DNA of 41,475 bases from a virus, in the IMG/VR virus record IMGVR_UViG_3300047586_000013, positions 1-41,475 of that record; one strand, 5' to 3'. Positions 260 through 36,212 of this stretch are shown piece after piece. The notes under the pieces are model-generated. The model was not told the DNA's origin. It did not search any database and saw nothing but the letters and a program-made list of their open reading frames with translations. A program made the position numbers and the translations under genes. Numbering within the stretch: position 1 is the stretch's first letter; each line of letters starts with the position of its first letter.

Positions 260-1210
260 ACCGCCTAACGACGCCCATTTACCGCCTGATACTGGCCGGT
301 AATATAACGCGCCATTACTCCCACGGACGAATACGTTTGTACCACTTACCGCTGGCGCACTCGTACATACACCGCCTAAGGATTGCCATTTACCGGCGAC
401 GCTGCGCCAGCACGCTTTATCTGAACCTATTACGAAGATACAACCGTCGGCGGCTACTACCGGCGAGGATGCGAAGGTTATCGACGTCGGTGGTGGTGTA
501 GGTGTCGGTCCCACCCCGTTCGGTGGATATGATTTCTGTAGATTTGATACTACGCTGTCGAAACCGAGCGATTCATATTCCGACTGCGATGAGTTCGTAC
601 CACCCCATACCTCGAAATAATTAACAACGTGGCCGGCGGATACTAACGAATCCATTATCGACTTATAACTCGGCGTGGTCCCGCTCTGTGAGTTTGATAG
701 TATCTGGTTATCCCCACCGGAATTAGCCCACGCACCGGCTAGTATGCCGTTCGGCTTTCCGGACCCTGCGCCCTGTAAAATATAATTAACTTCCGACGGA
801 TAATACGCTTCCCATAAATTTTGTATCGTCCCGGGGTCGGTGTATATATCTTTCCATAACCCACACTGGTCGCAGTTATAATTCACATATCCTAAACCCT
901 GGTTTTTTATAACCGTTGGATCGCCACTACGCCCCCCTTCCGAGCATACTATCGGCCACCCGGCCGCCTTCAATGATGCGAGATACGACGTGGAGATGGG
1001 ACTTGTTATCTGTCCGCCCGCCCAGATAGCCATTTCGATGTCGATGCGCGGCTTTAAGTTAAGCGATTTAATATAATCGCATTCGGTTTTATGCGCACCT
1101 GTGTCACTGATTACCAGGTCGATAGTGTTAACGTGCCAGTTTGTTTTAAACCACGGTGCCTGGGTATATGTGGACGGTGTTAGTGATACGCCATAATCGA
1201 TACTTGTCAT
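134..1210 (-). CDS. Glycosidase-like secreted/virion protein with PLL-type propeller tail
   Basis: The protein has 358 aa. Residues 1 to about 230 look like a TIM-barrel (glycosidase-type) fold: the start motif is IDYGVS, with acidic positions on putative strand ends (RIDIEMAIW, YFEVWGG). A PTPTPPPT linker follows. The last ~115 residues contain three repeats of the form PAVSG-x-V-x-V-x-G-x-ALYxR-x-SLGG, typical of PLL/DUF346-like sugar-binding propellers. The peptidase at 34810-36039 has the same linker-plus-propeller layout, so both probably act on, or anchor to, the host envelope. I see no obvious signal peptide. The gene directly follows the RHH gene (stop next to start). The enzymatic family is not certain; a non-catalytic adhesin is the alternative. 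Confidence 0.6.
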   Translation of the reverse strand: MTSIDYGVSLTPSTYTQAPWFKTNWHVNTIDLVISDTGAHKTECDYIKSLNLKPRIDIEMAIWAGGQITSPISTSYLASLKAAGWPIVCSEGGRSGDPTVIKNQGLGYVNYNCDQCGLWKDIYTDPGTIQNLWEAYYPSEVNYILQGAGSGKPNGILAGAWANSGGDNQILSNSQSGTTPSYKSIMDSLVSAGHVVNYFEVWGGTNSSQSEYESLGFDSVVSNLQKSYPPNGVGPTPTPPPTSITFASSPVVAADGCIFVIGSDKACWRSVAGKWQSLGGVCTSAPAVSGTNVFVRGSNGALYYRPVSGGKWASLGGVILAGTSPAVSGNDIYVMGTNNALYHRTLTAPWLKIADKIQ

Positions 1211-1411
1211 TTATTGTTTACCTCGTAAAAATTCTTTAACTATCTGCTCGGCGAGAACCGACGGCGGAACGCCTGCGTGCTCCGCGCAACATAAAAAGAT
1301 ATCAACCTCGGGCGGATATAACCAAAACTGCATACGTCTCGCGCCCTGGTCGCGCATCTGCTTATCGTAATTCAGATACCCGCGTCGGCTTGATACTTGC
1401 GCTCGCCCCAT
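1211..1411 (-). CDS. Ribbon-helix-helix-like small regulator (putative)
   Basis: The protein has 66 aa. After a basic N-terminus the pattern ARRMQFWLYPPEVDIFL is followed by two helices (AEHAGVPPSVLAEQIVKEFL), which resembles a CopG/Arc-type ribbon-helix-helix. It would be a DNA-binding regulator if this is right. The ATG at 1409-1411 has AAGGT upstream. A TATA-like box lies about 28-35 nt upstream, just behind the terminator of the previous operon, so this gene and the downstream glycosidase-like gene are probably one transcript. The family assignment rests on pattern only. Confidence 0.6.
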   Translation of the reverse strand: MGRAQVSSRRGYLNYDKQMRDQGARRMQFWLYPPEVDIFLCCAEHAGVPPSVLAEQIVKEFLRGKQ

Positions 1412-1430
1412 ACTCTACCTTATATGTATG

Positions 1431-1450
1431 TGATTAATGATATATAAATA
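1431..1450 (-). promoter_or_regulatory. TATA-like promoter of 1411 operon
   Basis: The minus strand reads ATATTTATATATC about 28-35 nt before the ATG at 1411. It stands alone, with no -35-like element, and lies directly behind a terminator. The spacing implies a very short leader. This is an archaeal-type arrangement. Confidence 0.5.
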
Positions 1451-1451
1451 T

Positions 1452-1483
1452 AAAAAAGGTAGGACGGTTATTTCTTACCGTCC
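1452..1483 (-). terminator. Hairpin terminator after 1468 gene
   Basis: A seven-base-pair stem GGACGGT/ACCGTCC (1462-1468 and 1477-1483) with an 8-nt loop is followed on the minus strand by a six-T run at 1457-1452. The stem includes the stop codon of the 64-aa gene. Confidence 0.6.
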
Positions 1484-1662
1484 CTCTTTGCGATGCGCTC
1501 TTTCGCGGTTTCCGTAATCCGGATATACTTAACCCCGTTGTTCTCCACGGAGAACGTGAGATACCCCGCGTCGAACAGTGGGGCTATATCGCCGGGTTTC
1601 GGTTTGTAGTACTCCGTTGAGCCCGAGCCGTTACCGCCATCGGGAAAGAACCGGCTGCTCAT
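1468..1662 (-). CDS. Small winged-helix-like protein (putative)
   Basis: The protein has 64 aa. The C-terminal two thirds (PGDIAPLFDAGYLTF...VKYIRITETAKERI) has the helix-turn then wing then helix pattern of short winged-helix proteins, where a hydrophobic beta hairpin precedes a final TexAkeri-like helix. Its ATG overlaps the stop of the OB-fold-like gene by 4 nt, so the two are translationally coupled. It is the last gene of the early operon before a terminator. A regulatory role is inferred; no catalytic motif is visible. Confidence 0.55.
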   Translation of the reverse strand: MSSRFFPDGGNGSGSTEYYKPKPGDIAPLFDAGYLTFSVENNGVKYIRITETAKERIAKRDGKK

Positions 1663-2108
1663 GCTACTTTCGCCTGTTTCGCTTTCGCTGGTCGCGCTTT
1701 TTCGACATTCACGTAGGTATATCCATCGCGTTCATTATGCCCGATGAGTATATCGTATCGTTTACCTACTAATTCATCGAGGTTAACGCCGAAACGTTCA
1801 TCGACCGACTTGCCTAACATGCCGGCAATTAACTTTTTGAAATTCGACCGCGGCCCCCATACTCTGTTTACTGTACGGCGAACGCGAGCGCCATCGCTTT
1901 CGAACCATAATACCACCTTATCCCGCGTCTCGCCTTCTTTCGCAAACGGACCGGTCATCGGCACGTCCTTTATTACCTCATAATTAACGAACTGCGCGGA
2001 GTGCCACCCTTCATCGATCATATCGACTTCGGATGGCGCGTCGTTCTCGGTCATTATAACCGATTCGTGGACTATGTTTCTCGCTTCTTCGTATTCACCG
2101 TCTACCAT
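1659..2108 (-). CDS. DUF669-like / ssDNA-binding candidate
   Basis: The protein has 149 aa. Its layout resembles phage DUF669-type replication/recombination proteins: an N-terminal acidic stretch, a middle beta-rich part (KVVLWFESDGARVRRTVN), then NFKKLIAGMLG and NLDELVGKRYDILIGH, which pairs a 'LaaLlG' helix with a 'dLvGk' strand. The C-terminal tail PAKAKQAKVA is basic. Such proteins usually sit beside nucleases and act on single-stranded DNA. Here the next genes upstream are small membrane proteins and a methyltransferase. An internal ATG near residue 19 is an alternative start. No other replication protein was found in the window, so this may be the main DNA-metabolism factor the virus supplies itself. 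Confidence 0.55.
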   Translation of the reverse strand: MVDGEYEEARNIVHESVIMTENDAPSEVDMIDEGWHSAQFVNYEVIKDVPMTGPFAKEGETRDKVVLWFESDGARVRRTVNRVWGPRSNFKKLIAGMLGKSVDERFGVNLDELVGKRYDILIGHNERDGYTYVNVEKARPAKAKQAKVA

Positions 2109-2242
2109 TTTCTAACACACCTATTATATTCTTTTTTTCCGTACTTTATTCTATTATTCAATTCGTCCAATCCGAATACGATTACGATTAGGATCATAAT
2201 CGCAGCGGCTACCCACGGCATGAGTAAGACGTTTATTATCAT
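2102..2242 (-). CDS. Small single-pass membrane protein
   Basis: The protein has 46 aa and starts MIINVLLMPW. One strong hydrophobic segment (residues about 2-24) is followed by a charged tail rich in Asn, Lys and Arg. I chose this ATG because GAGGTG lies 7 nt upstream, overlapping the end of the preceding membrane protein. A longer in-frame start at 2269 is possible. The stop overlaps the ATG of the OB-fold-like gene. The role is unknown; it could be a membrane-targeted early protein. Confidence 0.55.
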   Translation of the reverse strand: MIINVLLMPWVAAAIMILIVIVFGLDELNNRIKYGKKEYNRCVRKW

Positions 2243-2244
2243 CC

Positions 2245-2400
2245 TTACGCACCTCGCTTTATCGCCCATCCTTCGACACCAGCACATACCAGGTAGATTG
2301 CCGTTAAGATAACCATCGCGGCTATTAGTGCAATCGGACCCCAAAATAGCCCGAAGGCTAACAAGCCGGCGGTTATAAACGCGGCTAGTAGATAAGTCAT
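2245..2400 (-). CDS. Small two-pass membrane protein
   Basis: The protein has 51 aa: MTYLLAAFITAGLLAFG, a GP break, then a second segment IALIAAMVILTAIYLV and a short basic tail. GAGGT stands 9 nt before the ATG. It is a clean two-helix hairpin, the size and shape of a small holin or pore-former, but it sits in the early region far from the peptidase. The role is not assigned. Confidence 0.6.
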   Translation of the reverse strand: MTYLLAAFITAGLLAFGLFWGPIALIAAMVILTAIYLVCAGVEGWAIKRGA

Positions 2401-2410
2401 TGTATATACC

Positions 2411-2563
2411 TCACTTTTCATCGCACTGGCAATCGCACGTTTCGCCGTAACACCCGTGCGCGATTGCTAATTCCTGTAGGACCTGTATCAAACGCAAACG
2501 GAAATACCCGTCGTCTTTTAGGCGGATATATTCGTTGAGTTCATCATCCGTCAATTTAGCCAT
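2411..2563 (-). CDS. Hypothetical 50-aa protein with Cys-rich tail
   Basis: The protein has 50 aa. A charged helix (KLTDDELNEYIRLKDDGYF) is followed by RLRLIQVLQELAIAHG and a tail with four cysteines (GCYGETCDCQC). GAGGT lies about 7 nt before the second of two close ATG codons, which sets the start. The gene is packed between the Zn-type protein upstream and the two-pass membrane protein downstream. The cysteine tail suggests metal binding. The function is unknown. Confidence 0.6.
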   Translation of the reverse strand: MAKLTDDELNEYIRLKDDGYFRLRLIQVLQELAIAHGCYGETCDCQCDEK

Positions 2564-2568
2564 ATCAT

Positions 2569-2775
2569 TTACCTCAATAGTTGATTCGCCTTAACGATCC
2601 CTAGTACTGCCTCGTATTTATCGCAGATTTGCCAATACATCTTTTTACAATCTACGTATAGTTTCTCCGCGAGGGCGAGATCGTGTTTGAGTTCGTCGTT
2701 TTCTTCGGCTATATTGCACGATTGGCACGGATGTACACAATCGACACAATATTCCATATCGCCCCTGCCTACCAT
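2569..2775 (-). CDS. Cys-rich coiled-coil small protein
   Basis: The protein has 68 aa. The N-terminus carries CVDC and, five residues on, CQSC (a CxxC pair suited to a zinc site). It is followed by a heptad-like helix EENDELKHDLALAEKLY and two further cysteines. GGAGGT lies 8 nt before the ATG. A second ATG at residue 7 is also possible. The start codon overlaps the stop of the upstream Cys-rich frame (TAATG). It resembles a zinc knuckle fused to a dimerising helix. The function is unknown. Confidence 0.6.
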   Translation of the reverse strand: MVGRGDMEYCVDCVHPCQSCNIAEENDELKHDLALAEKLYVDCKKMYWQICDKYEAVLGIVKANQLLR

Positions 2776-2867
2776 TATCCTTTACCTCCGGCGTTACATT
2801 GCGAGCAATCGCGCAATCCCCATATATCGCAGTTCTCGCATTCGTCGTCCTTCTTTGTTTGCGAGTA
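2775..2867 (-). other. Open Cys-rich frame without start (CxxC-x9-CxxC)
   Basis: This frame is open for about 30 codons and encodes DDECENCDIWGLRDCSQC followed by NAGGKG, a convincing zinc-ribbon signature. It has no ATG, GTG or TTG after the upstream stop at 2868-2870. It overlaps the 40-aa gene at 2794-2916 in another frame. A +1 shift after the AAC AAA codons of that gene would join the two into one coherent zinc protein. It may be a real frameshift product, an indel in the assembly, or a decayed gene. Confidence 0.35.
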
Positions 2868-2916
2868 TCAAGTCGTCAAGAGTCCAATCATCACCGGGCT
2901 GCCATGAATCTACCAC
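2794..2916 (-). CDS. Hypothetical 40-aa protein
   Basis: The protein has 40 aa and begins with GTG. GGTGAGG lies about 9 nt upstream. The first half (DSWQPGDDWTLDDLILANK) is acidic with tryptophans, while the second half is basic and looks less protein-like. This fits the idea that the natural product changes frame into the overlapping Cys-rich frame. Its start lies 2 nt after the stop of the preceding gene. Confidence 0.4.
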   Translation of the reverse strand: MVDSWQPGDDWTLDDLILANKEGRRMRELRYMGIARLLAM

Positions 2917-2917
2917 G

Positions 2918-3064
2918 TTAAGAAGCCTCACCAGCGGTAAACGGACTCCAAGAAGGACAATCTTCTGATTCTGATAATTCTGATTCGCGACCTAAGAAAC
3001 AGCGATACATGCTTTCGCCTTCGTGGTTATACCTTAGATGAGAACAGGTTGCACAGATTTTCAA
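2918..3064 (-). CDS. Mini Cys-rich (zinc-binding) protein
   Basis: The protein has 48 aa and starts with TTG that overlaps the stop of the methyltransferase (TTGA). The pattern is CATCSHL, later RCF, then EDCPSWSPF. The CxxC-...-C-...-C layout, with a closing C-P-x-W, resembles short Zn-binding proteins encoded by many phages. A G-rich stretch in the end of the methyltransferase gene can serve as Shine-Dalgarno. The function is unknown. Confidence 0.6.
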   Translation of the reverse strand: MKICATCSHLRYNHEGESMYRCFLGRESELSESEDCPSWSPFTAGEAS

Positions 3065-3804
3065 TTTAGAAATCCCCCTATCCATTCAGTATATGCTGGT
3101 GGAATTGCCTGCGTTAAGTCGTATTTGTTTTTCGTGAGCGTTGGGTGTTTGTTCATCCAATCAATCTGCATAGCATCGCACCAATCGGAATATCTTGCAG
3201 AACCGTCACCTCCATGACCGGCAACAGTACAATATCTTGCCTTTACTCGGTCGTAATATTGTTTTCTGAGCCGTCTGCGTGTTTCATTATCGCCACCTGC
3301 CGAATATGAACCTATAGGGTTGCCATTTATTACCGCAACGACATCACCATTTTTAATCGTTCCTTTATGTTGGCACCCACACGGAGGATATATCCATACA
3401 TCGGTTCCATTCTCGAAAAGCCGATGGCGTATCACACGGAGATTAAACATCGTTCCGCATAATCGAAGCGGTTTGATAAGTTTCGCACCGACTACGTTCT
3501 CGATGATATATGGCTTTCTTGTTTCGATTAAAAGGTTTCTAGTTTTGCCTAACAGATCGGGATACACCTTACCCTTATTGCGAATACCTTTAGTGGCGAA
3601 TGAATACGCCTGGCACGGCGGGCTCGCGTGTATAACGTCGAATTCGTTGATAAACGATTCTTCGAGTTCAAAAACATCCGACTGAATAAACTCAAAGGGA
3701 TAATTCGGTTGTTCTTTAATGTCTACACCTACTACGTCAAACCCTGCGCGGTGGTAGCCCATTGCCGCGCCGCCCGCACCACAGTAGAGGTCCAACAGTT
3801 TCAT
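3061..3804 (-). CDS. DNA (cytosine-5) methyltransferase
   Basis: The protein has 247 aa, complete but short for the family. Motif I is DLYCGAGGAAMGYHRAGF (SAM binding, residues 5-22). Motif IV is SPPCQAYS with catalytic Cys64. Motif VI is ENV, motif VIII RHRLFE, and motif X is the IPPAYTEWIG region at the end. It would methylate C5 of cytosine, probably protecting viral DNA from host restriction. No partner endonuclease of a restriction pair is next to it, so it looks like an orphan phage methyltransferase. The variable target-recognition region contains a CGC motif and many basic residues. It is translationally coupled to the mini-gene after it. Confidence 0.93.
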   Translation of the reverse strand: MKLLDLYCGAGGAAMGYHRAGFDVVGVDIKEQPNYPFEFIQSDVFELEESFINEFDVIHASPPCQAYSFATKGIRNKGKVYPDLLGKTRNLLIETRKPYIIENVVGAKLIKPLRLCGTMFNLRVIRHRLFENGTDVWIYPPCGCQHKGTIKNGDVVAVINGNPIGSYSAGGDNETRRRLRKQYYDRVKARYCTVAGHGGDGSARYSDWCDAMQIDWMNKHPTLTKNKYDLTQAIPPAYTEWIGGFLN

Positions 3805-3874
3805 CTTTCTTTCTGTTCTTCACACCGACGTAATCTAATCCAAAAACTAAGTTCGTTGCGCTGACTATCATTTT

Positions 3875-4003
3875 CTATGACAATACCGCCTTAAACAACA
3901 GGACGTTTACAACCAGGAATATACAGATTATTTGCGCGAGGCCGATACCGATTAGTAACTGGGTTATCTCGGATTTAACGTTTAGCTTAGCGTTGCGGCT
4001 CAT
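3875..4003 (-). CDS. Small membrane protein
   Basis: The protein has 42 aa: a basic N-terminus (MSRNAKLNVKS) then a hydrophobic segment from about residue 15 to 41 (LLIGIGLAQIICIFLVVNVLLF). The ATG overlaps the TGA of the preceding gene by 4 nt. The orientation is probably N-in. The role is unknown. The ~70 bases after it, up to the methyltransferase start, hold only a short open frame without a canonical start. Confidence 0.6.
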   Translation of the reverse strand: MSRNAKLNVKSEITQLLIGIGLAQIICIFLVVNVLLFKAVLS

Positions 4004-4158
4004 GCTGAGCGCTTCCTGCGCTGTATCTCGCGCTGTATCTCTAGTTTAAGTGTACGCTCGTCGTAGTATCCATAAGATAGGACGCCGAACACATCTTCGA
4101 GTTCTCGATCCGATAAGGCGGATAGCCTACCGGACCGGGTTTTTAGTTGTTGATTCAT
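4000..4158 (-). CDS. Hypothetical 52-aa helical protein
   Basis: The protein has 52 aa, highly charged: MNQQLKTRSGRLSALSDREL, then a helix KLEIQREIQRRKRSA. GGTG stands 10-14 nt before the ATG and a TATA-like box lies about 50 nt upstream, so it is the first gene of the methyltransferase operon. It could be a small DNA-binding regulator. There is no recognised domain. Confidence 0.6.
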   Translation of the reverse strand: MNQQLKTRSGRLSALSDRELEDVFGVLSYGYYDERTLKLEIQREIQRRKRSA

Positions 4159-4202
4159 CTATACACACCTTCACCGGATTTCTCCGACGCAATATACTAT
4201 GT

Positions 4203-4220
4203 CTTTATAATATATAGGTT
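4203..4220 (-). promoter_or_regulatory. TATA-like promoter of methyltransferase operon
   Basis: The minus strand reads AACCTATATATTATAAAG, an archaeal-type TATA region about 45-60 nt before the ATG at 4158. A GGTG ribosome site lies between. The preceding gene ends at 4253. The gap 4159-4252 holds no gene. Confidence 0.5.
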
Positions 4221-4252
4221 TTCCTATGTCTTACTTTTTCATAGTCCACGCC

Positions 4253-4564
4253 TCACTTTTTATCTACTAGTGTTAAATGTTCCGGTTTGATACACCCATA
4301 CACGCCGCACGTATTCTTAACATACTTACCTTCCGGGATGCCGTCGCCGTTATGTATCAAATACATCATACGGCGCGCGGATACTAACTTACCATCCGGG
4401 CGGCGAAGTTCCTTACGTGTGACGTAGAACTGCCCGTCGCCGTGATGCATACCCTGATATAACCAATGCCGGAGCGGCGGTCCGGTTTCTATTATGTGCG
4501 ACATAATCCTGTTTAGAATATTACCCCGGTCGCCGCGAGGTACCACCTCTTCAAACGTTACCAT
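4253..4564 (-). CDS. HNH-like zinc-binding endonuclease
   Basis: The protein has 103 aa. The C-terminus CGVYGCIKPEHLTLVD matches the closing signature of phage HNH_3-type endonucleases (C-x4-C-x-N/K-P-x-HL). The upstream YLIHNGDGIPEGKYVKN region contains the expected histidine. It would nick or cut DNA, either as a selfish homing enzyme or in genome processing. It stands alone between two promoter-like regions. The AT-rich gap upstream (4565-4817) has no convincing gene. Confidence 0.75.
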   Translation of the reverse strand: MVTFEEVVPRGDRGNILNRIMSHIIETGPPLRHWLYQGMHHGDGQFYVTRKELRRPDGKLVSARRMMYLIHNGDGIPEGKYVKNTCGVYGCIKPEHLTLVDKK

Positions 4565-4638
4565 GAATATTAGAACGCTGCGAGGCTACATATAGTTTTC
4601 CTATTCCTAGCCAATCGCGAATTACCCGCCAATAGAAA

Positions 4639-4652
4639 TATAAAAAAAAGTT
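4639..4652 (-). promoter_or_regulatory. T-run / TATA element before HNH-like gene
   Basis: The minus strand carries eight T followed by ATATTTC. It could terminate the 5245-4818 transcript (oligo-T terminator) or act as the TATA box of the HNH-like gene 75 nt downstream. The sequence alone cannot decide. Confidence 0.35.
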
Positions 4653-4710
4653 ATTTTATTATGTTGTAGAGGTATGTTTTATTAGTATTTAGTTTCATGC
4701 TCGGATTCGG

Positions 4711-6755: not shown

Positions 6756-7145
6756 CTATCTTAAATGTACAAATTGAGTTAATATAATCAGAATAAACGA
6801 CGTTAACACCGTCGACAGGATAGCGATAAACCATCTAGAATTTCCTGATTGTATCTCCGCTATCTTATTGCTAAGTGTCCCATTGATCTCGCTTATCTTA
6901 CCGTTAATAATGTCTATAAGCTTCGCCTGCGCGGTTATATACGCCTCGTGCGACCTATCTAATCGTTCGATACTCTCTTTTATAGTTTTTATCTGTTCTT
7001 CGCGGAGCGTTTGCCCTCGCGCTAATTCATTACCGAGTTTATCGATATCGTCGAAACATCGTTCTAGATGCTCTACGCGGTACCGAAGGCTATTATTATT
7101 CGGCTGTTGTCCGTCTTTTTGGTTTGATGTATGTGGGTTATCCAT
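6756..7145 (-). CDS. Coiled-coil, tail-anchored membrane protein
   Basis: The protein has 129 aa. It has a polar N-terminus and a long coiled coil (about residues 20-105: RVEHLERCFDDIDKLGNEL and repeated I/L heptads). A single C-terminal membrane helix follows (WFIAILSTVLTSFILIILTQF). The layout is like XhlA/hemolysin-type holin accessories. Its ATG overlaps the end of the thioredoxin-like gene. A lysis or membrane-scaffold role is inferred. Confidence 0.6.
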   Translation of the reverse strand: MDNPHTSNQKDGQQPNNNSLRYRVEHLERCFDDIDKLGNELARGQTLREEQIKTIKESIERLDRSHEAYITAQAKLIDIINGKISEINGTLSNKIAEIQSGNSRWFIAILSTVLTSFILIILTQFVHLR

Positions 7146-7563
7146 TTAAGCTCCCCAGTATTGTCGCTTCACTCTGTACGGTATCAAACCGTTTAACTTC
7201 TTTCCCGTTTTTAAGGATAATCGTCGTCGGCGTCGTCTTTATATCCCACTGTTTGATAAGCGCCGTACCGGTAGAATTAGTCGTTAAGTTTATTACTGTC
7301 ACCATATGCGTCTTAGCTATATCTTGTATCGCCGGATTCTGCGCCGCGCAGTATTCGCACCCGTCCTGATTAAAGTAGATAATGCTCATCGTCGGCTTAA
7401 CGGTCGCGTTAACCGTCCTATTCACTATTATAATCGGACACGGCTTTTCTTGTTTACTATTCGCTAGATTATTAATGGTAATCGTCTGTATAGCAACCGA
7501 GAGCCCCCATAACCCGATAATAATAACGAGCGCGATTGCGAGAATCTTTTTTAACATCACCAT
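7138..7563 (-). CDS. Membrane-anchored thioredoxin-like protein
   Basis: The protein has 141 aa. Residues 5-27 form an N-terminal signal anchor, followed by a linker. The thioredoxin fold begins at about residue 58 (MSIIYFNQDGCEYC), with the active site C69-E-Y-C72. The loop DIKTTPTTIIL carries the expected cis-Pro, and KNGKEVKRFD closes the fold. It probably works outside the membrane as a disulfide oxidoreductase. It is encoded between a receptor-binding protein and membrane proteins of the putative lysis group. The same GCEYC active site and a similar TP loop occur in the tape measure protein (11147-16018), so the two may be partners or paralogues. The start could also be the third codon (ATG). 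Confidence 0.8.
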   Translation of the reverse strand: MVMLKKILAIALVIIIGLWGLSVAIQTITINNLANSKQEKPCPIIIVNRTVNATVKPTMSIIYFNQDGCEYCAAQNPAIQDIAKTHMVTVINLTTNSTGTALIKQWDIKTTPTTIILKNGKEVKRFDTVQSEATILGSLNG

Positions 7564-7597: not shown

Positions 7598-8851
7598 CTA
7601 GTACCTCGTAAGGTTCCGGTAATCATATGGAATAAATAACAACCGGGCGCCTATAGTTGCGGCGCTCGTATTCGCGAGGGTCGTAATCAACTGCGAACAG
7701 AATATTCCCGCGTAAGCACCGGAGCCATAATTCCCACCCGACGTCATGTAGCTATTATTTGTCGTAAACGTGGCCGTCGTGTAATAGTCGCACATATACG
7801 TTGATGAACTACCGCCCGACACGGTATACGGGAATAACTGCGCGGCTTCCGCAAACGTGCCAGGCATTCGCGTTATCCTCTTTATATACCCACTCGAAAG
7901 AGGCGCGGATATGTCCGCCTTTAGGTATCCAGTTCCTGCGTCGCTGTCAAACACATTACCGAGACTAAACCATAGGTTCCCACTTGTCGGGGCCGCATAG
8001 ATCCCGTCGATAAGTGTAGACGTATTACCCCATAGGTTCTCTATGCCACGATACGATACCGCGTAATCGGCGGTCGCGGGGATAACTACTTTCCCGCTGC
8101 CGTTACCCAGGTCGGAACACCCGGACGGCCCATCGAGGCTCGTATACCCCGTCTTCTGTTTAGCGGTCGATACGATGCCGGCACCGATATTCGACTGCGA
8201 ATCGAGGTTAGCGTACTCGACCATATATAACAACTGGATGGCGCTTAACGCCGTCCATTCTAATAACATCCACCCATAACCAGCAGCCGGCACCGCATCA
8301 ATACCAGACGCCACGCGGAACGCGGTAAGCGTGGTCGACGTCGTTGGCGTTATGTTCGGTTGCGACCATAAGAACGTACTCGCTACGTTTCCTTCGAACG
8401 CGCCGATATAGATATGATCCACGACGGAACCGTACCGGTTAAACGCGGGGTGTAACCTATACCCCTTTCGCGGATATGGGGATATATAATAGTCAGTCGT
8501 TGTAGCGCTTGAGTCTGGGCTGGTTATCTTTACCCAGAACTTAGGTACTTCCACCATTACTAACGGCACCGCCGCCGCGGAAAGCGCCATACGCGTACCG
8601 CCATCATCTAAATCGTCTATATCACTCCATATCGTGCCGACAGGCGTAAGGTATACGCGCCGCATGCCACCCCAGGGTGTATACGAAGAAAAATCTGATG
8701 TATGCGGCGTAACGCCGGTATTAACTGTCATACCAACAGCGTCACCGAGGCGCGTTAACGTCGGTGACGGCGCCGAGACATCGATGCGGACCCCGAATTC
8801 TAGCGGCGGCCGTACTGTGTCTAAGTTATTTGTGCGAGATGCGGTTATCAT
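7598..8851 (-). CDS. C-type-lectin-like receptor-binding tail protein 1
   Basis: The protein has 417 aa. The middle has LHPAFNRYGSVVDHIYIGAF and SYRGIENLWGNT, both typical of phage tail proteins whose C-terminus folds as a C-type lectin. The last part (GGNYGSGAYAGIF...ARLLFIP) has the closing pattern of such domains. The protein at 28426-29673 is a paralogue with the same order of motifs. It follows the Dit-like gene, the usual place for adsorption proteins. Related domains are targets of diversity-generating retroelements, but no reverse transcriptase is in this window. It would bind a host surface ligand at the tail tip. Confidence 0.75.
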   Translation of the reverse strand: MITASRTNNLDTVRPPLEFGVRIDVSAPSPTLTRLGDAVGMTVNTGVTPHTSDFSSYTPWGGMRRVYLTPVGTIWSDIDDLDDGGTRMALSAAAVPLVMVEVPKFWVKITSPDSSATTTDYYISPYPRKGYRLHPAFNRYGSVVDHIYIGAFEGNVASTFLWSQPNITPTTSTTLTAFRVASGIDAVPAAGYGWMLLEWTALSAIQLLYMVEYANLDSQSNIGAGIVSTAKQKTGYTSLDGPSGCSDLGNGSGKVVIPATADYAVSYRGIENLWGNTSTLIDGIYAAPTSGNLWFSLGNVFDSDAGTGYLKADISAPLSSGYIKRITRMPGTFAEAAQLFPYTVSGGSSSTYMCDYYTTATFTTNNSYMTSGGNYGSGAYAGIFCSQLITTLANTSAATIGARLLFIPYDYRNLTRY

Positions 8852-8853
8852 TG

Positions 8854-9678
8854 TTATACCCCGTTATACCGGTCTACCCATCGACATTTCACGTAAGACG
8901 TTGCATCCACGGCCCCGTCCACCTCGACATTTATAACATTTATACCTGGTACGAGAGGGAATAACGTCGAATTAGTGTCGAGATCCTGGAATACTCTATA
9001 TGCAGCTTCAACTATTGCCGACTGTTGCCCCAGTCGCGTATCTACTTGGAATACGTCGTTTGAAATACCCATCGCATACGTAAATTTAAAGTATTTCTGC
9101 GTATTAAAGTTCGTGACAGTTATTGCCGTTGAAGGTCCGTTAAACTCCCATATAGGATATGTGTCAACGTCGCCGGAATTATACACCGAATGATAACCAG
9201 CCAGCGCGTACGGACTCCACATTAGTTCGTTTTCGAGCGCATTATACCACGACGGTTCGTGCGCGTGAAATACCGCCACGAACTTACGAAACGTACTGTT
9301 TCCGGTGTCGGTGTTTTCGGGTAACGTCATACCCTCTTCATAATGACAATTTAAATAAAGTGTTTTCGAATCCGTGGTTACTACCTTTAGTTTACCCATA
9401 CCGTGTGTCGGATCAAAGGCGTCAGTAAGCATGCGCAGATTAGTAATAAAATCGGATGCGCTTGTACCGTAAACGACTATCGGTATGGTAACGTCGCGCG
9501 GTTCCGTTAATTGTAAGGTCAATTGGTCCCCAGGTGCGTTGTAATACTTATTAACTGCCATATCATATGGGGGCATCCACCGACCGTCTAGACCCTGTAA
9601 TACGCTATATTTTATGCCGTCGGTAAGGTCGAGCGAACCCCCATCCGAATCTATCCAGTATATTTTTTCAACTGTCAT
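8854..9678 (-). CDS. Distal tail (Dit-like) protein
   Basis: The protein has 274 aa. N-terminal LTDGIKYSVLQGLDGRWMPP and the later APGDQLTLQLTEPRDVTIPI match the start of siphovirus distal tail proteins. The segment FRKFVAVFHAHEPSWY fits the mid-domain in which these proteins form the hub ring. It sits immediately after the Gp37-like gene and before the lectin-like protein. It would connect the tail tube to the adsorption apparatus. Confidence 0.72.
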   Translation of the reverse strand: MTVEKIYWIDSDGGSLDLTDGIKYSVLQGLDGRWMPPYDMAVNKYYNAPGDQLTLQLTEPRDVTIPIVVYGTSASDFITNLRMLTDAFDPTHGMGKLKVVTTDSKTLYLNCHYEEGMTLPENTDTGNSTFRKFVAVFHAHEPSWYNALENELMWSPYALAGYHSVYNSGDVDTYPIWEFNGPSTAITVTNFNTQKYFKFTYAMGISNDVFQVDTRLGQQSAIVEAAYRVFQDLDTNSTLFPLVPGINVINVEVDGAVDATSYVKCRWVDRYNGV

Positions 9679-9680
9679 AT

Positions 9681-11153
9681 CTATCCGCCTCCGGTAGTAG
9701 TCCCGCTAGTATCTTTACTGCCCATCAACTGACGTACGACGCGTTCTAGCGCCTTTACGTGCGCATCCATGTTATGCCATCCTTTGTTTGCACTAGCTAT
9801 CTCACTCACCGTAGCGGTAACGACTTCCCCGGCAGAATCGACGGATATGTCTACCTGACGCACTAAATTATCGATATATGTCTCTTCACCTACACCGCGC
9901 GTCGGTAGCCGCACCCGTACGTAATCCCCGATCCAGAAATTATAATCGCCGGTTTCTGGTGTTAATATATACTGATTAGGCAGTTCTAATACCGTGGCCG
10001 TGACGTTTTTATTAAATAGAAGCGGCGTTACCTGCGCCTTTCCGACCGCGTCCATCTGTGTAAGTATTGCCGCCCGCGTCTGTCCGAGTTCGCCGGACGC
10101 GTCGCACATACCCTCGATAAGTCCGTACGTATTTTGCGATATGTCGGCATTAGGTGTATCGACACGCCGGAACATACGATACTCCCCTTCGCCCCACCCG
10201 CCGACGATCATTAAATTAGTACCGGGGCGTATTTCTTCGTAATCCAGGTTACTAACATTTCCTAATCGTTCGGAAAATATAACCTTCGTTTCCTTGCGCG
10301 GTGCCTGGCGAATGTTAAAATTTAGGTATACCCCACCGGAAACGGGTTGTTGTTCTATCCAGAATCGCACCTCTTGATAGGGGTATAACCGTATCGTGTT
10401 ATCGTCGTCGCCGGATATGAGCCACTTACACCCGTCCAATACTGATATAAATTTCTGCGTATACGTAACCGTATTGCCAACGTTGTTCGAAACCACGTCG
10501 AGCTGCGGCATATAACGGTAAGTATACGGATCGTTGAAAGTATCGTTAACGAGCCGGCCCATAACGGATCCCTGTGTACTGGTTATCTTATCCCACTGGT
10601 CGCCGGTGCCTGAATTATGCCCACCGATAAATAAGTGCGTCCAGGGCCCCCACGTCCCGGTTCCGTTTCCGGTATTCCAATCGAGTCCCGTTAACTGGTC
10701 CTTCGGCTGGTAATACCCGAAGTGCGTACACGACCACGCGCCACCATAACAATCCGGGTATATCAACTTATCTTGTAATAATATTTCATCGCTACTAAAC
10801 GTCACCTCGACCGTATCACTCACGCCCGATACCCTGGTGCGTTTGACTCCTGAGATAACACCGTTAAACATCGGTACCGTATCGTTATTGCGCCATATTA
10901 TAACACCCGTACCCTGAGGATTAAAGTTGCCATAGTTGTTCGTTAACCATGACGTCTCGGTACCCGGGTCTTGATCATCATCGTACCACGTATTAATAAA
11001 GTCGAGGGTATCCATCGTCATAACGACCGTTGAGATATCGCAGTATTTAAGCGACATCTGTAAGGTGACCCAGTTAAACACCGGCTCCCGTGGTGAAAAG
11101 TCGTAGTTACGCGCCCATATACGATAGGCATTTATTTGTTTAGCGCCTACCAT
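9681..11153 (-). CDS. Tail hub protein, Gp37-like
   Basis: The protein has 490 aa. The beta-rich N-terminus (MSLKYCDISTVVMTMD, GVIIWRNNDTVPMFNGVISG) resembles the siphovirus Gp37/Tal-type hub domain. The C-terminal part contains YVRVRLPTRGVGEETYI and a short helix (AHVKALERVVRQLMG), common in these proteins. It overlaps the end of the tape measure by 7 nt and precedes the Dit-like gene, as expected for a tail-tip hub. No peptidase motif is visible, so it is structural here. Confidence 0.72.
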   Translation of the reverse strand: MVGAKQINAYRIWARNYDFSPREPVFNWVTLQMSLKYCDISTVVMTMDTLDFINTWYDDDQDPGTETSWLTNNYGNFNPQGTGVIIWRNNDTVPMFNGVISGVKRTRVSGVSDTVEVTFSSDEILLQDKLIYPDCYGGAWSCTHFGYYQPKDQLTGLDWNTGNGTGTWGPWTHLFIGGHNSGTGDQWDKITSTQGSVMGRLVNDTFNDPYTYRYMPQLDVVSNNVGNTVTYTQKFISVLDGCKWLISGDDDNTIRLYPYQEVRFWIEQQPVSGGVYLNFNIRQAPRKETKVIFSERLGNVSNLDYEEIRPGTNLMIVGGWGEGEYRMFRRVDTPNADISQNTYGLIEGMCDASGELGQTRAAILTQMDAVGKAQVTPLLFNKNVTATVLELPNQYILTPETGDYNFWIGDYVRVRLPTRGVGEETYIDNLVRQVDISVDSAGEVVTATVSEIASANKGWHNMDAHVKALERVVRQLMGSKDTSGTTTGGG

Positions 11154-14100
11154 GGCGGCGCCCCACCACCATACTCTAATAACGACTGCATTTTAAGCTT
11201 TTTCATTATGGTTTTAACAATCTCATCGCTTTTAATCCCGGAGACGTTGATATTATACACTACATGCCGGCCCTTCGATGATGCTGTACTGTTCACCTGT
11301 TGCGATTGCGTTACAGATTGTATCGCCGAGGATACTGCGTCGTTAATCATAGGCTGTAGTTTCGTCAATGGTAGGAGTGCTTCGGCACCCGCTTCGCCGA
11401 ATATACGCATCGTCGCCTTAGTGGCGATACCGCCTTCTTGTCCGAGTAACCCCTTCGCGGCGTTAATCCCGGCTTGTCCTTCCGCCTGTGGATTAGTAGA
11501 CGCCGGTAGTTGCGCCCCGTAACCGCTTGAATCTAACCAGCTTCCGAAGTTACCAGTAGCACCGGATAGATCAGAACCCATACTGCCAACGTATCCGGCT
11601 TGATCGGCGTTTAACCCTGCTCCGGTTTGTGCGCTCCATACCTGCGCAGCTAACGTCGCTTCCTGGGACTGTAGGTTTTTAAACTCCGCGGTTTGCGCTA
11701 TCAGTCCCGCGTTAACCGTCGCGTCCGCACTTTCTATTAACTTATTATTTTGATTTAATATATTGCCGAACTGGTCGAGGTGTAACCCCATAGAAGTTAA
11801 GTAATTATTACCTAAAACTGTGAGGGCGTCCTGTGCTTTAAATTGCGTATTTAGTTTACCAGCATAGGCTACCTGCGATACTGCTTCTTTATACACGCCC
11901 GCGAGTCCGGTATTCCCGGCTTTATAGTCCGATTGCATCGCACCTATTTCTTTATTAATATTATCCGCCGACGTTTTCATACCGACGAGTTGATCGGTTT
12001 TACCCCAATCTACCGGCGTGGACTCACCGCGAGCCATCTCGTTTCCACCGTGCGCGGACATTGTACCTATCGCTCCGGCTTTCGTGGCCGTGCCGCCTGT
12101 AGCCCAATCTATTAAACCGACGATGGGATCTACAATCATGGATAATGGACTATTCCCGGGTTTCCCTATACCCTGGGTCATACCTTCCCACATCTGCGTA
12201 TCCTGCGCCTTTTGACCCCCTAAACCTAATACTTGTGCGATTGTTTTTCCATATACGTCGGCCCCGAGTCCGAGCGGCCCCACGACGGACTGACTGCCTA
12301 CGTTTTGATACCCTTCCGGCCCGTACGACGCCGGCCTTTGCGCGCTCGTCGCTTCCGCCGCCCCGGTTCCTAATTGTCCAGAATCCGTACCCGTTATGTA
12401 CCCTCGACTTGGATTAAGTATAGAACCTAAGACAGTAGAAGCTACAAAGTGCGTCGGATCGATGGCGTTTACGAACCCCTGCGCTATACTTGTAGGGGAT
12501 ATATTATCTAAAAGGTTAGTGGCCGCACCTACAGTTTGAGTAAGTGCCGGGAGGCCCGGAAATAGTGCGTTTTCGAAAGCCGGTCCCGCGGTCGGGAAAG
12601 TCTCTACGTTTATGTTTCCAGCGCCCGGCGATTTGGATGGTGCGGCGTTTAAAAGATTCTCTATAGGTTCCGTAATGGCTTTATATATCGGGTTAGACGT
12701 TATCGGCGTTTCGATGCCTAACATCCCGGTGGGGGTTCCCGTAGAGTCCCGAGCACCAGCACCCGTCCAGTTAGGACTTCCCAAGATTAATTGCGCCAGA
12801 GGCCCCATAGACGGCGATAATACCTGTGCGATAGTATTAAGGGGGGTGGTTATAGCAGCATATGGGCCGTTAGGATCGAGTAATCCGCCGGGGGTGGGTA
12901 CCTGCGAGGTTCCGGCCCCGCGCGCGTTCATCTCCGGCTGCGTTAAGCCTAATGCGTTCGTTAACCAATCGACGCCCCCACTCACTACGGAAGGTGCACT
13001 CATTATCGAAGTACCGAGCGTATTTCCTATAGTACCCCAATCGACATTTCCTATAGCGGAACCGACTGCGGTACCAATCTCCATAGGTGCGGCTATTAAC
13101 GCCGTGTTGCCGCTCTTACCGCTCGCTGGCGAGGTAGGATTAAGGAAACTATCTATCCCGCTTTTTATAGCACCCATAACGTCGGAACCGACGCCACCGA
13201 GAACCGATAAGCCGCCGCCTAATGTCGTCGTCGTGTCCGCCGCGTTGTTCGGCCCCGCCGCGAGTATCGCCGCCCTACTTGCGTCGGTTTCGCATATCCA
13301 GCACTTACCAGTATACCATGACGGTTGCGCCGGATATGATTTAATCGTCGCGTTGCCCGTGACGTTTGCCGCGGTGGCGTTAGCTAAAGTTGTATTACCC
13401 GGTCCAAAGTCCGGCGGTATTGTCGCCTGCGCCTTATATCCTGCCTGAACCGACTTGATCGCGGATACCATATCTCCTACTCCGCTAGTGTCGGCGAGGT
13501 ATTGACCGCTTGGCAGTATAACCCCTGGAGTCGATGTTAACCCAAATTTCTTAGCGTCCGCCGCGCCCGCTGCGCTGGTATTAATATCTAACGTTGTATA
13601 TGGGATACCTGCGGCCGTTAACTGTTGCTCTATCTGATCGCAGTATTCGCAGCCAGCTTGTCGAAGTACGGTCACCGCTGGCATAACTAAACTACCGTTA
13701 GCATTCACTGGTGAGGTAGAGTTACCCGTTACCGCCGTCGAGTTCCCGCCTCCCGGTTGTGTAACGCCCCATCCGGCTTCGGTTGCGTTTCCACCTGTCG
13801 ATGCTCCCGTGGGGCCGCTCGCAGTCATTGGCGTTGAATACATAGAACCGACGCCTATTAATGCCGCTTGAGTAACACCGAGAGACGCGGGTACTGAGGT
13901 TGTCGATAACGGTGTCGTCGATAGCTGGTAACCGATTAAGGCTTGCGTGGCATCCGTCGCCTGCGTCTGAGCGGCGGTATTATCATTCACTGCCGCCGTA
14001 TTATTATTAGACGCCGCTGCTGGACAACTACCACCGGAACACGCACTCGCGCCACTACCTGCGCCGGCGCTTCCGCTTGCGCCACTCGATGAACCGCACC

Positions 14101-16018
14101 CGCACGCCTTAGCCGCTTCCGTCGAGGTAGCCGTGGCCGCCGTACTCACTGCCGTATCTGCTATCGGTGTCGTATGCGTCGCTAATGTCGTATTCGTTAT
14201 ATCGCGTTGATCGTTCGCGGTTATTAAAGTTGAATACTGGTCGGTAGATATGCCGTACTGTTGTAAAGAGATGTTAACACTATCTTGTATCTGTGAATTA
14301 AGGCTGTCGAGTTGATCGTTCATTAACTTAAGATAGTTAGGGCCCCCACTGAGGCCGCTTAACGGTATCACGGCTTCCGGTCCCGCATCGGCGAGTACGG
14401 CCAACATCTCATTAGTAACGATACCGCCGTGCTGCATATACTTTAGTTTCGAGGTATCGAGGTTCGGGGAACCGAGGCCGGTACTAACCGGTTGTCCGGT
14501 AGACGGAACGATAGACGTGCCGCTCGGGACTACTGCGGCTGCGGCGTCCGCCTTTGTCTGCTTTACCGATGCGGCTGCCTGATCGGAGGTATATTTAAGG
14601 TATAAGAATGCGGCGGCTAATATGGCGAGTTCTCCCGCGAGTGCGACCATAGAACCTTCGGCTATAACCGCCGCGTCGCCCGCGGCCCCAATACCGCCCG
14701 CGGCAGTATCGCCGGCTGCGCCTTCGGTTACTAACGCGCCGCTCGCGGTTGCAGATTCCCCGGCTAATGTCGTATCTGCGCCGCCAGTTATTCCTAGTGC
14801 TGTGGTTAACGTGGTAAGACCGCCGAGAACGGTAGTTATCGCCCCACTCATAACTGTCCAGGCTGTAGTGAGTATTGGTATTCCCGCGGCTAGTATTCCC
14901 ACTGCGATACCGACATCCTGAACCGGCTTTGGCAATTTACTAAACCACGTTACCGCGTCGCTAACGATTTTAATAACTGGGGTCATCGCGTCTAAGAAGT
15001 TAGATAATATTGTTATAAGGGTGGTACCAAGCGGTGCGAATGCGAGTTCGGCTTTATTCTTAAACTCGTCAAGTTTTTGCCCGAACGTTTTAGTTGCGTC
15101 CGCGGTGGAATTTATCTTACCGGGTGAGTTCGCCATATCATTCATTAACCCGGCCCATTTATCCCGCGTTTCCTGGCTTGCGTTAGCAAACTTCTCTACT
15201 TGGGTACCAAACTCCTTTATATCTGACGCGGTTACTTTATACGACGGGTCTTTAAGCCGCTCCATAAAGTTATTCCATTCAGTAGCCGCATCTTTACCAT
15301 TCTTGGCCGCGTTAATAGTTTCGGTATTAATCATAGCTACCGCTTGGCGAGCAGGTATCCCGGCGATAGTCATTTCACCCATCATAAGCGCCGTTTGTTC
15401 GAATGATAGCCCCGCGTCTTTCGCAGGTCCGGCGGCTTTAGCAAGTAGCGTCGCTAGGTCGGTAACACTGACGCCGGTATCTGTAAACAATGTATATAAT
15501 TCGTCGGCTTTACCCGACATTTGGTCGGCAGTAACCCCCCACGCGATAAACGACGACGTGAGACTATCGATATCCGACTTAACATCCGTGCCGGTTATAC
15601 GGGACAAGTTAAGCATCTGCGTTGTAAAACTTGTAGCAAACGCGTCGGCATTACCCTTAATCTGCGTTAACCGGTCGTTAACCTCACCTATCGCGGTTGC
15701 TACCTGGCTAAAGCTTTCGGGTACGTTAGCCGCCACGGTATCAAACCGTTGTTTTAACTCATCGAGTTTCGTACCCGTTGCGCCGGTTACATTCTGTATC
15801 TGCGAATAAGCCGACTGAACGTCTAACCCGGACTTTATCGCCGCAGCCCCAATAGCTACTATAGGAACGGTAACGGTGGCGAGTCCAATATTACTAAGAT
15901 TACCGAGCGATGATTGTAACCCCGAAACCTCGCCCTTCGCCGTCGCGACGGCTGCCGTAAGGCCGGACGGGTCGCCGGTAATCTTAACCATTAATTCCGT
16001 TAACGTTGTCGCTACCAT
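11147..16018 (-). CDS. Tape measure protein with internal glutaredoxin-like domain
   Basis: The protein has 1623 aa. Residues 1 to about 330 are the phage minor-tail/tape-measure core (ITGDPSGLTAAVATAKGEV; GLSFEQTALMMGEMTIAG). A hydrophobic stretch lies near 375-420. The motif GGIVTNEM...DAGPEAVIPL, normally near a tape measure C-terminus, appears at about 530-555. A variant, GGIATKAT...EAGAEALLPL, appears near 1526-1553. Between them are a Cys-rich Gly/Ser stretch (CGCG...CSGGSC, about 638-665), a glutaredoxin-like domain (about 782-858) with C790-E-Y-C793 and a STPGVILPSG loop, and a CWIC site at about 906. It sets tail length and is ejected into the host. The redox insert is unusual. Confidence 0.9.
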   Translation of the reverse strand: MVATTLTELMVKITGDPSGLTAAVATAKGEVSGLQSSLGNLSNIGLATVTVPIVAIGAAAIKSGLDVQSAYSQIQNVTGATGTKLDELKQRFDTVAANVPESFSQVATAIGEVNDRLTQIKGNADAFATSFTTQMLNLSRITGTDVKSDIDSLTSSFIAWGVTADQMSGKADELYTLFTDTGVSVTDLATLLAKAAGPAKDAGLSFEQTALMMGEMTIAGIPARQAVAMINTETINAAKNGKDAATEWNNFMERLKDPSYKVTASDIKEFGTQVEKFANASQETRDKWAGLMNDMANSPGKINSTADATKTFGQKLDEFKNKAELAFAPLGTTLITILSNFLDAMTPVIKIVSDAVTWFSKLPKPVQDVGIAVGILAAGIPILTTAWTVMSGAITTVLGGLTTLTTALGITGGADTTLAGESATASGALVTEGAAGDTAAGGIGAAGDAAVIAEGSMVALAGELAILAAAFLYLKYTSDQAAASVKQTKADAAAAVVPSGTSIVPSTGQPVSTGLGSPNLDTSKLKYMQHGGIVTNEMLAVLADAGPEAVIPLSGLSGGPNYLKLMNDQLDSLNSQIQDSVNISLQQYGISTDQYSTLITANDQRDITNTTLATHTTPIADTAVSTAATATSTEAAKACGCGSSSGASGSAGAGSGASACSGGSCPAAASNNNTAAVNDNTAAQTQATDATQALIGYQLSTTPLSTTSVPASLGVTQAALIGVGSMYSTPMTASGPTGASTGGNATEAGWGVTQPGGGNSTAVTGNSTSPVNANGSLVMPAVTVLRQAGCEYCDQIEQQLTAAGIPYTTLDINTSAAGAADAKKFGLTSTPGVILPSGQYLADTSGVGDMVSAIKSVQAGYKAQATIPPDFGPGNTTLANATAANVTGNATIKSYPAQPSWYTGKCWICETDASRAAILAAGPNNAADTTTTLGGGLSVLGGVGSDVMGAIKSGIDSFLNPTSPASGKSGNTALIAAPMEIGTAVGSAIGNVDWGTIGNTLGTSIMSAPSVVSGGVDWLTNALGLTQPEMNARGAGTSQVPTPGGLLDPNGPYAAITTPLNTIAQVLSPSMGPLAQLILGSPNWTGAGARDSTGTPTGMLGIETPITSNPIYKAITEPIENLLNAAPSKSPGAGNINVETFPTAGPAFENALFPGLPALTQTVGAATNLLDNISPTSIAQGFVNAIDPTHFVASTVLGSILNPSRGYITGTDSGQLGTGAAEATSAQRPASYGPEGYQNVGSQSVVGPLGLGADVYGKTIAQVLGLGGQKAQDTQMWEGMTQGIGKPGNSPLSMIVDPIVGLIDWATGGTATKAGAIGTMSAHGGNEMARGESTPVDWGKTDQLVGMKTSADNINKEIGAMQSDYKAGNTGLAGVYKEAVSQVAYAGKLNTQFKAQDALTVLGNNYLTSMGLHLDQFGNILNQNNKLIESADATVNAGLIAQTAEFKNLQSQEATLAAQVWSAQTGAGLNADQAGYVGSMGSDLSGATGNFGSWLDSSGYGAQLPASTNPQAEGQAGINAAKGLLGQEGGIATKATMRIFGEAGAEALLPLTKLQPMINDAVSSAIQSVTQSQQVNSTASSKGRHVVYNINVSGIKSDEIVKTIMKKLKMQSLLEYGGGAPPW

Positions 16019-34643: not shown

Positions 34644-34810
34644 CGTATGATTATGTGTCCTTCAATAGCCAGCGATATAAAGAACCCTAACGCCATCATA
34701 AACGCCGACCATATGACAAACGTTAACGCCGCGCGTTTCGATGCGGGTTCATCGGCGGTATCTTCCAACGGCACGATAACGCGCTCCATAGGATGATCCC
34801 ATTTCTCCAT
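34640..34810 (-). CDS. Small single-pass membrane protein next to peptidase
   Basis: The protein has 56 aa. A charged N-terminus (MEKWDHPMERVIVPLEDTAD) is followed by one long hydrophobic helix (ALTFVIWSAFMMALGFFISL). Its ATG shares one base with the stop of the peptidase gene. It could help release or anchor the peptidase. One helix is less than the usual holin. Confidence 0.6.
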   Translation of the reverse strand: MEKWDHPMERVIVPLEDTADEPASKRAALTFVIWSAFMMALGFFISLAIEGHIIIR

Positions 34811-36039: not shown

Positions 36040-36041
36040 TT

Positions 36042-36212
36042 TTAAAAAAACTCCTGTATCCATTCGTTTAACGACTGTTCGCCTTCTTTCGACAACCACT
36101 CCGTTAGTATATGGAATATAATGCCGTCGTCCGTTTCGTCTTTAAACCACGGGCGACGCGTCCGCGCCTCGTTTATTACTTTTACCGTGGTATCTGATAT
36201 TGTTATATCCAT
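36042..36212 (-). CDS. Hypothetical 56-aa protein
   Basis: MDITISDTTVKVINEARTRR, then a helix-rich acidic part (HILTEWLSKEGEQSLNEWIQ) and a final FF. The ATG overlaps the TAA of the coiled-coil gene. It could be a small DNA- or protein-binding adaptor. The function is unknown. Confidence 0.55.
   Translation of the reverse strand: MDITISDTTVKVINEARTRRPWFKDETDDGIIFHILTEWLSKEGEQSLNEWIQEFF

Follow-up and report, generated by a model that had tools for sequence, protein, structure and literature searches.

A redoxin-like domain among paired cysteines recurs in the tape measure proteins of two divergent viruses

The window, by which we mean the whole 41,475-nucleotide stretch that was analysed (IMG/VR record IMGVR_UViG_3300047586_000013), encodes a tail tape measure protein (TMP) in which residues 779 to 865, or thereabouts, form a glutaredoxin-like thioredoxin fold according to profile matches and a structural model (13424–13684, (-)). 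The layout is real, and the arrangement of this domain and the paired cysteines around it is conserved in two divergent viruses, the second being IMGVR_UViG_3300046703_000009 (hereafter G001, with loci labelled L005 and L002). TMPs with an enzyme-type domain are a known kind of protein, to which these two belong; we found no described case of a redoxin-bearing TMP in the open-licence literature. The role that we favour, tentatively, is that the domain exchanges disulfides at the cell envelope during entry.

The TMP is identified both by profile matches and by its position upstream of the Dit and tail-tip genes. The 1623-aa open reading frame (11147–16018, (-)) matched PF10145 and TIGR01760, both over cut-off, together with nine PHROG tape measure families, and its PhageMin_Tail core spans residues 105–302 (15113–15706, (-); PF10145, 46.1 bits against a cut-off of 33.2). 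Downstream of it, profile matches pick out a Gp37-like gene (9681–11153) and a Dit-like gene (8854–9678). The cysteine and redoxin region is bracketed by two copies of a GxAGxEAxxPL motif, near residues 543 and 1541. Located by script, the first copy (QHGGIV..DAGPEAVIPL, residues 529–555; 14354–14434, (-)) forms the upstream border of the region and the second (GGIATKATMRIFGEAGAEALLPL, residues 1523–1554; 11357–11452, (-)) the downstream border. Between them the protein is rich in glycine, serine, alanine, threonine and asparagine, in agreement with an earlier note on this DNA, which had described Gly/Ser/Asn-rich linkers on its flanks with further cysteine sites. N-glycosylation sequons are only marginally enriched in this TMP (P 0.08), and for that reason we do not count them as strong evidence on the host.

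Profile searches place the domain close to the glutaredoxins. PF00462 scored over its cut-off of 22.9 bits on the window DNA (25.4 bits) and on the isolated domain (25.2 bits), with a match covering residues 782–833, and reached only 19.5 bits against the same cut-off when the whole 1623-aa TMP was scored. The domain also matched TIGR02196 (E 1.7e-7) and PHROG_22, ‘thioredoxin domain’ (E 6e-7). NCBIfam cut-offs were not reached for TIGR02194 (17.3 bits of the required 85.75), TIGR02200 (30.2 of 89.5) or TIGR02196 (31.6 of 88.55), and assignment by sequence to a named NrdH, mycoredoxin or YruB family was rejected on that account.

We modelled residues 767–873 with AlphaFold2 from a single sequence. 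The predicted structure is a beta-alpha-beta-alpha-beta-beta-alpha thioredoxin fold with a moderate pLDDT of 66.6 overall and 69–81 across most of the core. Foldseek ranked poplar glutaredoxin C1 (2e7p), Mrx1 (2lqo) and human glutaredoxin 2 (2fls) at the top, its best matches being mostly glutaredoxins, and the best match in VIA-align was dithiol cGrx1 (7c10; Z 10.3, rmsd 1.6 Å over 75 residues), followed by BC3987 and NrdH. In sequence and model, the active-site-like C790-E-Y-C793 (13640–13651, (-)) stands where alpha1 begins. T830-P831, within an STP loop (13526–13534, (-)) that puts Pro831 at the putative cis-Pro position, stands ahead of beta3; both placements are as in active redoxins. 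A PF00462 score over cut-off, a thioredoxin fold, and a CxxC and a loop proline in their expected positions thus place the domain in the glutaredoxin superfamily. A lone chance CxxC was rejected as an explanation, since fold, profile and recurrence concur.

The earlier note had placed a glutaredoxin-like domain at 13430–13690 from the motifs CEYC, LDIN and STPG, with CGC, C660/C665 and CWIC nearby. All of these motifs are present, STPG with Pro831, and the span fits ours; PF00462, TIGR02196, PHROG_22, the AlphaFold2 model, Foldseek and VIA bear the claim out, the model returning a thioredoxin fold and VIA a glutaredoxin as its best match. Glutaredoxin-like small redoxins (PF00462; the YruB-type TIGR02196, Mrx1, NrdH and cGrx1) have in common with the window domain this fold, a CxxC at the start of alpha1 and a proline before beta3, in about 80 residues. 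Unlike them, the window domain is embedded in a 1623-aa TMP instead of standing free, and it reads CEYC, not CPYC. Classical glutaredoxins bind glutathione and depend on it for reduction, and methanogens are not known to use glutathione.

G001 came from a portal-based scan (portal 67% identical in the best segment) and was the sole relative that the portal- and Dit-based scans yielded. Its TMP, a 1673-aa frame, is about 37% identical to that of the window over the N-terminal 420 residues, and a PF00462 match sits inside this long frame. Along the protein follow QHGGIV...AEAGPEAVFPL, a Cys-Gly-rich linker (CSC, then CANGQC twice), a redoxin domain with CPHC at the site of CEYC and GAP at that of STP, and CLPGQPC. 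The G001 domain was predicted, again from a single sequence and with moderate confidence (pLDDT 76.6), to be a compact beta-alpha-beta-beta-beta-alpha fold without alpha2. A Methanosarcina mazei thioredoxin was its best Foldseek match, but no match attained an E value of 0.001, and VIA returned thioredoxin-type folds with Z up to 7.6, so that the assignment to the redoxin fold is softer for this modelled domain than for that of the window. The two domains align only weakly with each other (P 0.0075); we regard them as corresponding because position, flanking cysteine linker, motifs and fold agree. MAFFT misaligned the middle of the two full-length proteins, and local alignments were used in its place.

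All eight cysteines of the window TMP (residues 639, 641, 660, 665, 790, 793, 906 and 909) fall within a span of 271 residues and in four pairs, at most six residues apart within a pair, and no equal to this clustering and pairing arose in 20,000 random placements. They make up a Cys-Gly-rich linker, CGC ... CSGGSC (residues 639–665, with CGC at 639–641 and C660/C665; 14024–14104, (-)), the CEYC, and a last pair, CWIC (residues 906–909; 13292–13303, (-)), at a place comparable to that of CLPGQPC in G001. The linker aligns with CSC...CANGQC of G001, the region scoring higher than 1000 of 1000 shuffles. In the G001 TMP, 10 of the 11 cysteines lie in the same region, in five close pairs (0 equals in 20,000 random placements).

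Such pairs might, together with the redoxin-like domain, bind zinc, an iron–sulfur cluster or copper in a structural role at the tail tip, the thioredoxin fold being a mere scaffold. CxC, Cx4C and CxxC pairs are capable of ligating metal, some glutaredoxins bind Fe-S, and the top Foldseek match, 2e7p, is the holo form of such a glutaredoxin. We nevertheless think metal binding improbable: as in redox-active members, the domain keeps a CxxC at the N terminus of alpha1 and a proline in the cis-Pro position, and the cysteine spacing is not kept as a fixed metal site would be.

Two TMP scans added three further relatives, L094, L096 and L097. The first ends at the contig edge within its TMP and the end of the second is duplicated, leaving neither informative on the domain; in L096 the contig end (4807–5391) is a second copy of about 500 bases from its own TMP gene, which is probably an assembly artefact and makes that TMP end untrustworthy. 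L097 (IMGVR_UViG_3300025864_000146, 1157–4678) encodes a 1173-aa TMP whose N terminus is 41% identical to that of the window. A redoxin domain was not found in it, so the redoxin has been gained or lost within this TMP group. Adjoining its GEAGPEA motif is the tight cysteine cluster CGPGYYFVQCSTCPPGVGSC (CGPGYYFVQCSTCPPGVGSCQ), so that the linker with its cysteines may predate the redoxin. The earlier note had asked whether homologues conserve CEYC and the TP loop. The answer is mixed: a CxxC and a proline at the start of beta3 recur in G001, with AP for TP, whereas L097 is without the domain.

Sequence similarity alone turned up no near relative of the domain among viral contigs, and a TMP scan of genome contigs gave one remote bacterial match. 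Among 47 terminase-related records tested besides G001 (45 of the 80 from the terminase scan, plus psiM2 and MetMV), none had a PF00462 or PF00085 match, an absence that is weak, as many records are fragments. Fifty records with the neighbouring tail gene, again many of them fragments, held redoxin-like frames of at most 91 aa and no long one; in all, about 97 related records beyond G001 showed no redoxin within a long frame. In annotated phages, relatives of the domain were, among the matches listed, mostly free-standing glutaredoxin genes, and none was annotated as a tape measure. Another reading is that a redoxin of host or viral origin became joined to a TMP linker that tolerates changes in length, and has no selected function there. 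The middle regions of TMPs tolerate insertions, L097 is without the domain, and the G001 copy has lost alpha2; against this, the CxxC and the proline persist in a domain that is otherwise so diverged as to be nearly unrecognisable by sequence, and both the full cysteine layout and a paired membrane redoxin recur. We therefore give a neutral insert little credence.

That second redoxin, on which the earlier note was silent, is a membrane-anchored thioredoxin-like protein of 141 aa encoded in the window (7138–7563, (-); PF00085, E 4.9e-7, over cut-off). It has CEYC at 7348–7359 and, after two lysines, an N-terminal hydrophobic anchor at about 7489–7551. Its G001 orthologue is 35% identical, with CPYC at the CEYC site, and occupies a matching position, after a phrog_5302-type tail gene and before a C-terminally anchored protein; in both genomes it comes after the tail genes. 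The window TMP domain is related to both membrane redoxins, the one in the window (BLASTP E 2e-6) and the one in G001 (z 11.9 relative to shuffled sequences). The G001 membrane redoxin carries 8 N-X-S/T sequons where 1.8 were expected, a sequence feature in keeping with an exposed archaeal protein. Both membrane redoxins match Pfam TraF over cut-off and TrbB weakly, a likeness to F-type conjugation, in which an envelope-side redoxin is encoded alongside the transfer apparatus; TrbB and TraF differ in being bacterial and in lying outside the ejected protein, and the viral proteins do not reach the NCBIfam cut-offs.

The next gene after the membrane redoxin encodes a coiled-coil-like protein of 129 aa with a C-terminal hydrophobic anchor (6756–7145, (-); counterpart L005:16832–17320). 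No significant Pfam family was found for it, and we infer it to be holin-accessory-like. Elsewhere, the late gene block has a phrog_5302 tail protein at either end (7598–8851, (-), and 28426–29673, (-)), the two being paralogous, and G001 apparently has two as well. A 958-aa protein (29678–32554, (-)) contains repeated ‘GPTINAGDTAVVGG’-like units, and its G001 counterpart (L002:11308–13737, (+)) a more regular repeat array, ‘GPKITALDYSVVGG’. Between its portal and capsid genes, G001 also encodes a Cys-rich protein resembling a YkgJ-type cysteine cluster (CESCPGYCC...; L002:10318–10842, (+)) that was not seen in the window.

A further possibility is that the TMP brings its domain into the cytoplasm as an effector or cofactor, which might, for instance, supply ribonucleotide reductase with reductant or modulate redox enzymes of the host, in the manner of phage NrdH/NrdC or of thioredoxin for T7 polymerase. 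Phage glutaredoxins in the annotated collection are indeed, among the matches listed, mostly NrdH/NrdC genes. Yet the few copies that a virion brings could not keep dNTP synthesis going. The second redoxin has a membrane anchor, and its domain is predicted to lie outside and not in the cytoplasm. The window proteins that were scanned include no ribonucleotide reductase; we consider delivery of this kind very unlikely.

The main rival to disulfide exchange at the envelope is that the redoxin and the cysteine pairs act on the TMP itself. Disulfides within or between TMP copies would lock the folded extension in the tail or its tip, and the domain would form, reshuffle or open them at assembly or on meeting the redox environment of the host. 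Flexible Gly-rich arms with cysteine pairs flank the domain in both viruses, and a redoxin is also made by the infected cell. The cysteine cluster that L097 retains without a redoxin would fit a cysteine linker that is the older, primary feature, and the CPHC of the G001 TMP domain resembles an oxidant active site, being the active-site sequence of DsbA. On the other hand, the host is probably an anaerobe, in whose reducing cytoplasm disulfides would form poorly at the assembly stage, and a lock needs less than an enzyme domain. We regard this explanation as rather unlikely, if more deserving of attention than the other alternatives.

An archaeal host is probable because the window terminase is closest to those of the archaeal viruses psiM2 and psiM100 (47%, E 9e-116; next Gordonia phages, 39%). 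Portal and capsid searches gave no archaeal signal, psiM2 and psiM100 not being among the best matches, and MCM helicase, tried as an archaeal marker, was absent from 42 of 42 records and rejected as uninformative. These two archaeal Caudoviricetes (Leisingerviridae), whose terminase is the nearest among annotated phages, have a siphovirus-type gene order in common with the window; their TMPs differ in having one cysteine and no CxxC, and their lysin is a pseudomurein endoisopeptidase. No pseudomurein endoisopeptidase was seen in the proteins scanned, and no peptidoglycan hydrolase among the main window proteins scanned. The window does encode a papain-family (C1) protease with DUF346-type C-terminal repeats (34810–36099, (-); PF00112 over cut-off), which its sequence makes a candidate enzyme against a protein envelope; G001 has a C1 protease too (L002:5574–6470). 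Taken together, the psiM2-like terminase and this protease point to a likely archaeal, protein-walled host. A putative surface enzyme (134–1210, (-)) has DUF346-like C-terminal repeats in common with the protease, perhaps a common envelope-binding module; the DUF346 match itself is weak, below cut-off and present only in the protease. Methanospirillum or Methanothrix as host is suggested only by the literature on disulfide-linked sheaths, our searches having yielded no sequence evidence for either.

In proposing how exchange at the envelope might proceed, we infer that the domain is redox-active, that it leaves the virion with the TMP and that it has targets in the envelope, and we likewise infer the direction of exchange, the electron store and the host. 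The window TMP would carry a thiol-disulfide oxidoreductase domain on a long, flexible, cysteine-paired extension between the two TMP-motif copies. As the TMP leaves the tail tube at infection, the domain would be placed in the cell envelope and exchange disulfides there, with disulfide-linked S-layer or sheath proteins of an archaeon as the likeliest targets. A virion cannot renew its reductant, and the few electrons required would therefore probably be stored or passed on by the other cysteine pairs on the flexible arms. The membrane-anchored thioredoxin, made in the infected cell, may do a related job at the outer face of the membrane late in infection, either aiding the folding of tail proteins or opening the envelope for release.

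We are led to envelope exchange because TMPs fill the tube, are ejected or lost, and can bear envelope-acting enzymes. In T5 (PMC11313276) and in the archaeal virus HFTV1 (PMC12494034), release of the DNA goes along with ejection or loss of the TMP. The C-terminal end of TMPs is located at the tail tip (PMC5099701, PMC11313276), and TMPs with envelope-acting enzyme domains are known (PMC3556154). Fold and motif, the recurrence of the layout and of its clustered cysteines, the paired membrane redoxin, the G001 sequons, the terminase, the protease and the lack of a peptidoglycan hydrolase among the main proteins scanned speak for this reading as well. Those of mycobacteriophage TM4, with a peptidoglycan hydrolase motif, and phiCbK, with a CHAP endopeptidase, likewise hold a catalytic-type domain that is thought to act on the envelope after ejection (PMC3556154), but these domains cut peptidoglycan, whereas that of the window is a redoxin. 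In Methanospirillum and Methanosaeta, disulfides hold the sheath hoops together, and splitting them takes strong reductant (PMC6242892). It counts against exchange at the envelope that a disulfide-rich envelope is established for some methanogens only, and that the layout occurs in two viruses only, one with a domain lacking alpha2, while L097 has the cysteine cluster without the redoxin; the single-sequence fold models, of moderate confidence, count against it too. The earlier note had suggested reduction of S-layer disulfides or action on entry, the S-layer being conjecture. An archaeal, protein-walled host is in keeping with both the psiM2-like terminase and the papain-family protease, but ‘reduces’ is not established, and we do not favour reduction over oxidation or isomerisation, because the dipeptide varies (CEYC, CPHC) and CPHC is the sequence of the oxidant DsbA; the CPYC of the G001 membrane redoxin is that of a glutaredoxin.

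A more specific version, which we judge unlikely, is a virion-borne, self-charged disulfide reductase: the TMP redoxin and its stored dithiol pairs would open a disulfide-linked archaeal envelope on entry, and the membrane redoxin and the cysteine protease would do likewise on exit. If true, it would be the redox counterpart of the lysin pair in phages of peptidoglycan-walled bacteria. The small size of the TMP domain makes expression and assay feasible and the idea directly testable. For the passage of tailed archaeal viruses through S-layers and sheaths, the HFTV1 structure paper (PMC12494034) proposed mechanical penetration, deacetylation of glycans or, possibly, degradation. A redox domain on an ejected TMP, paired with a redoxin in the membrane, would make thiol-disulfide exchange a further means by which viruses breach the envelope.
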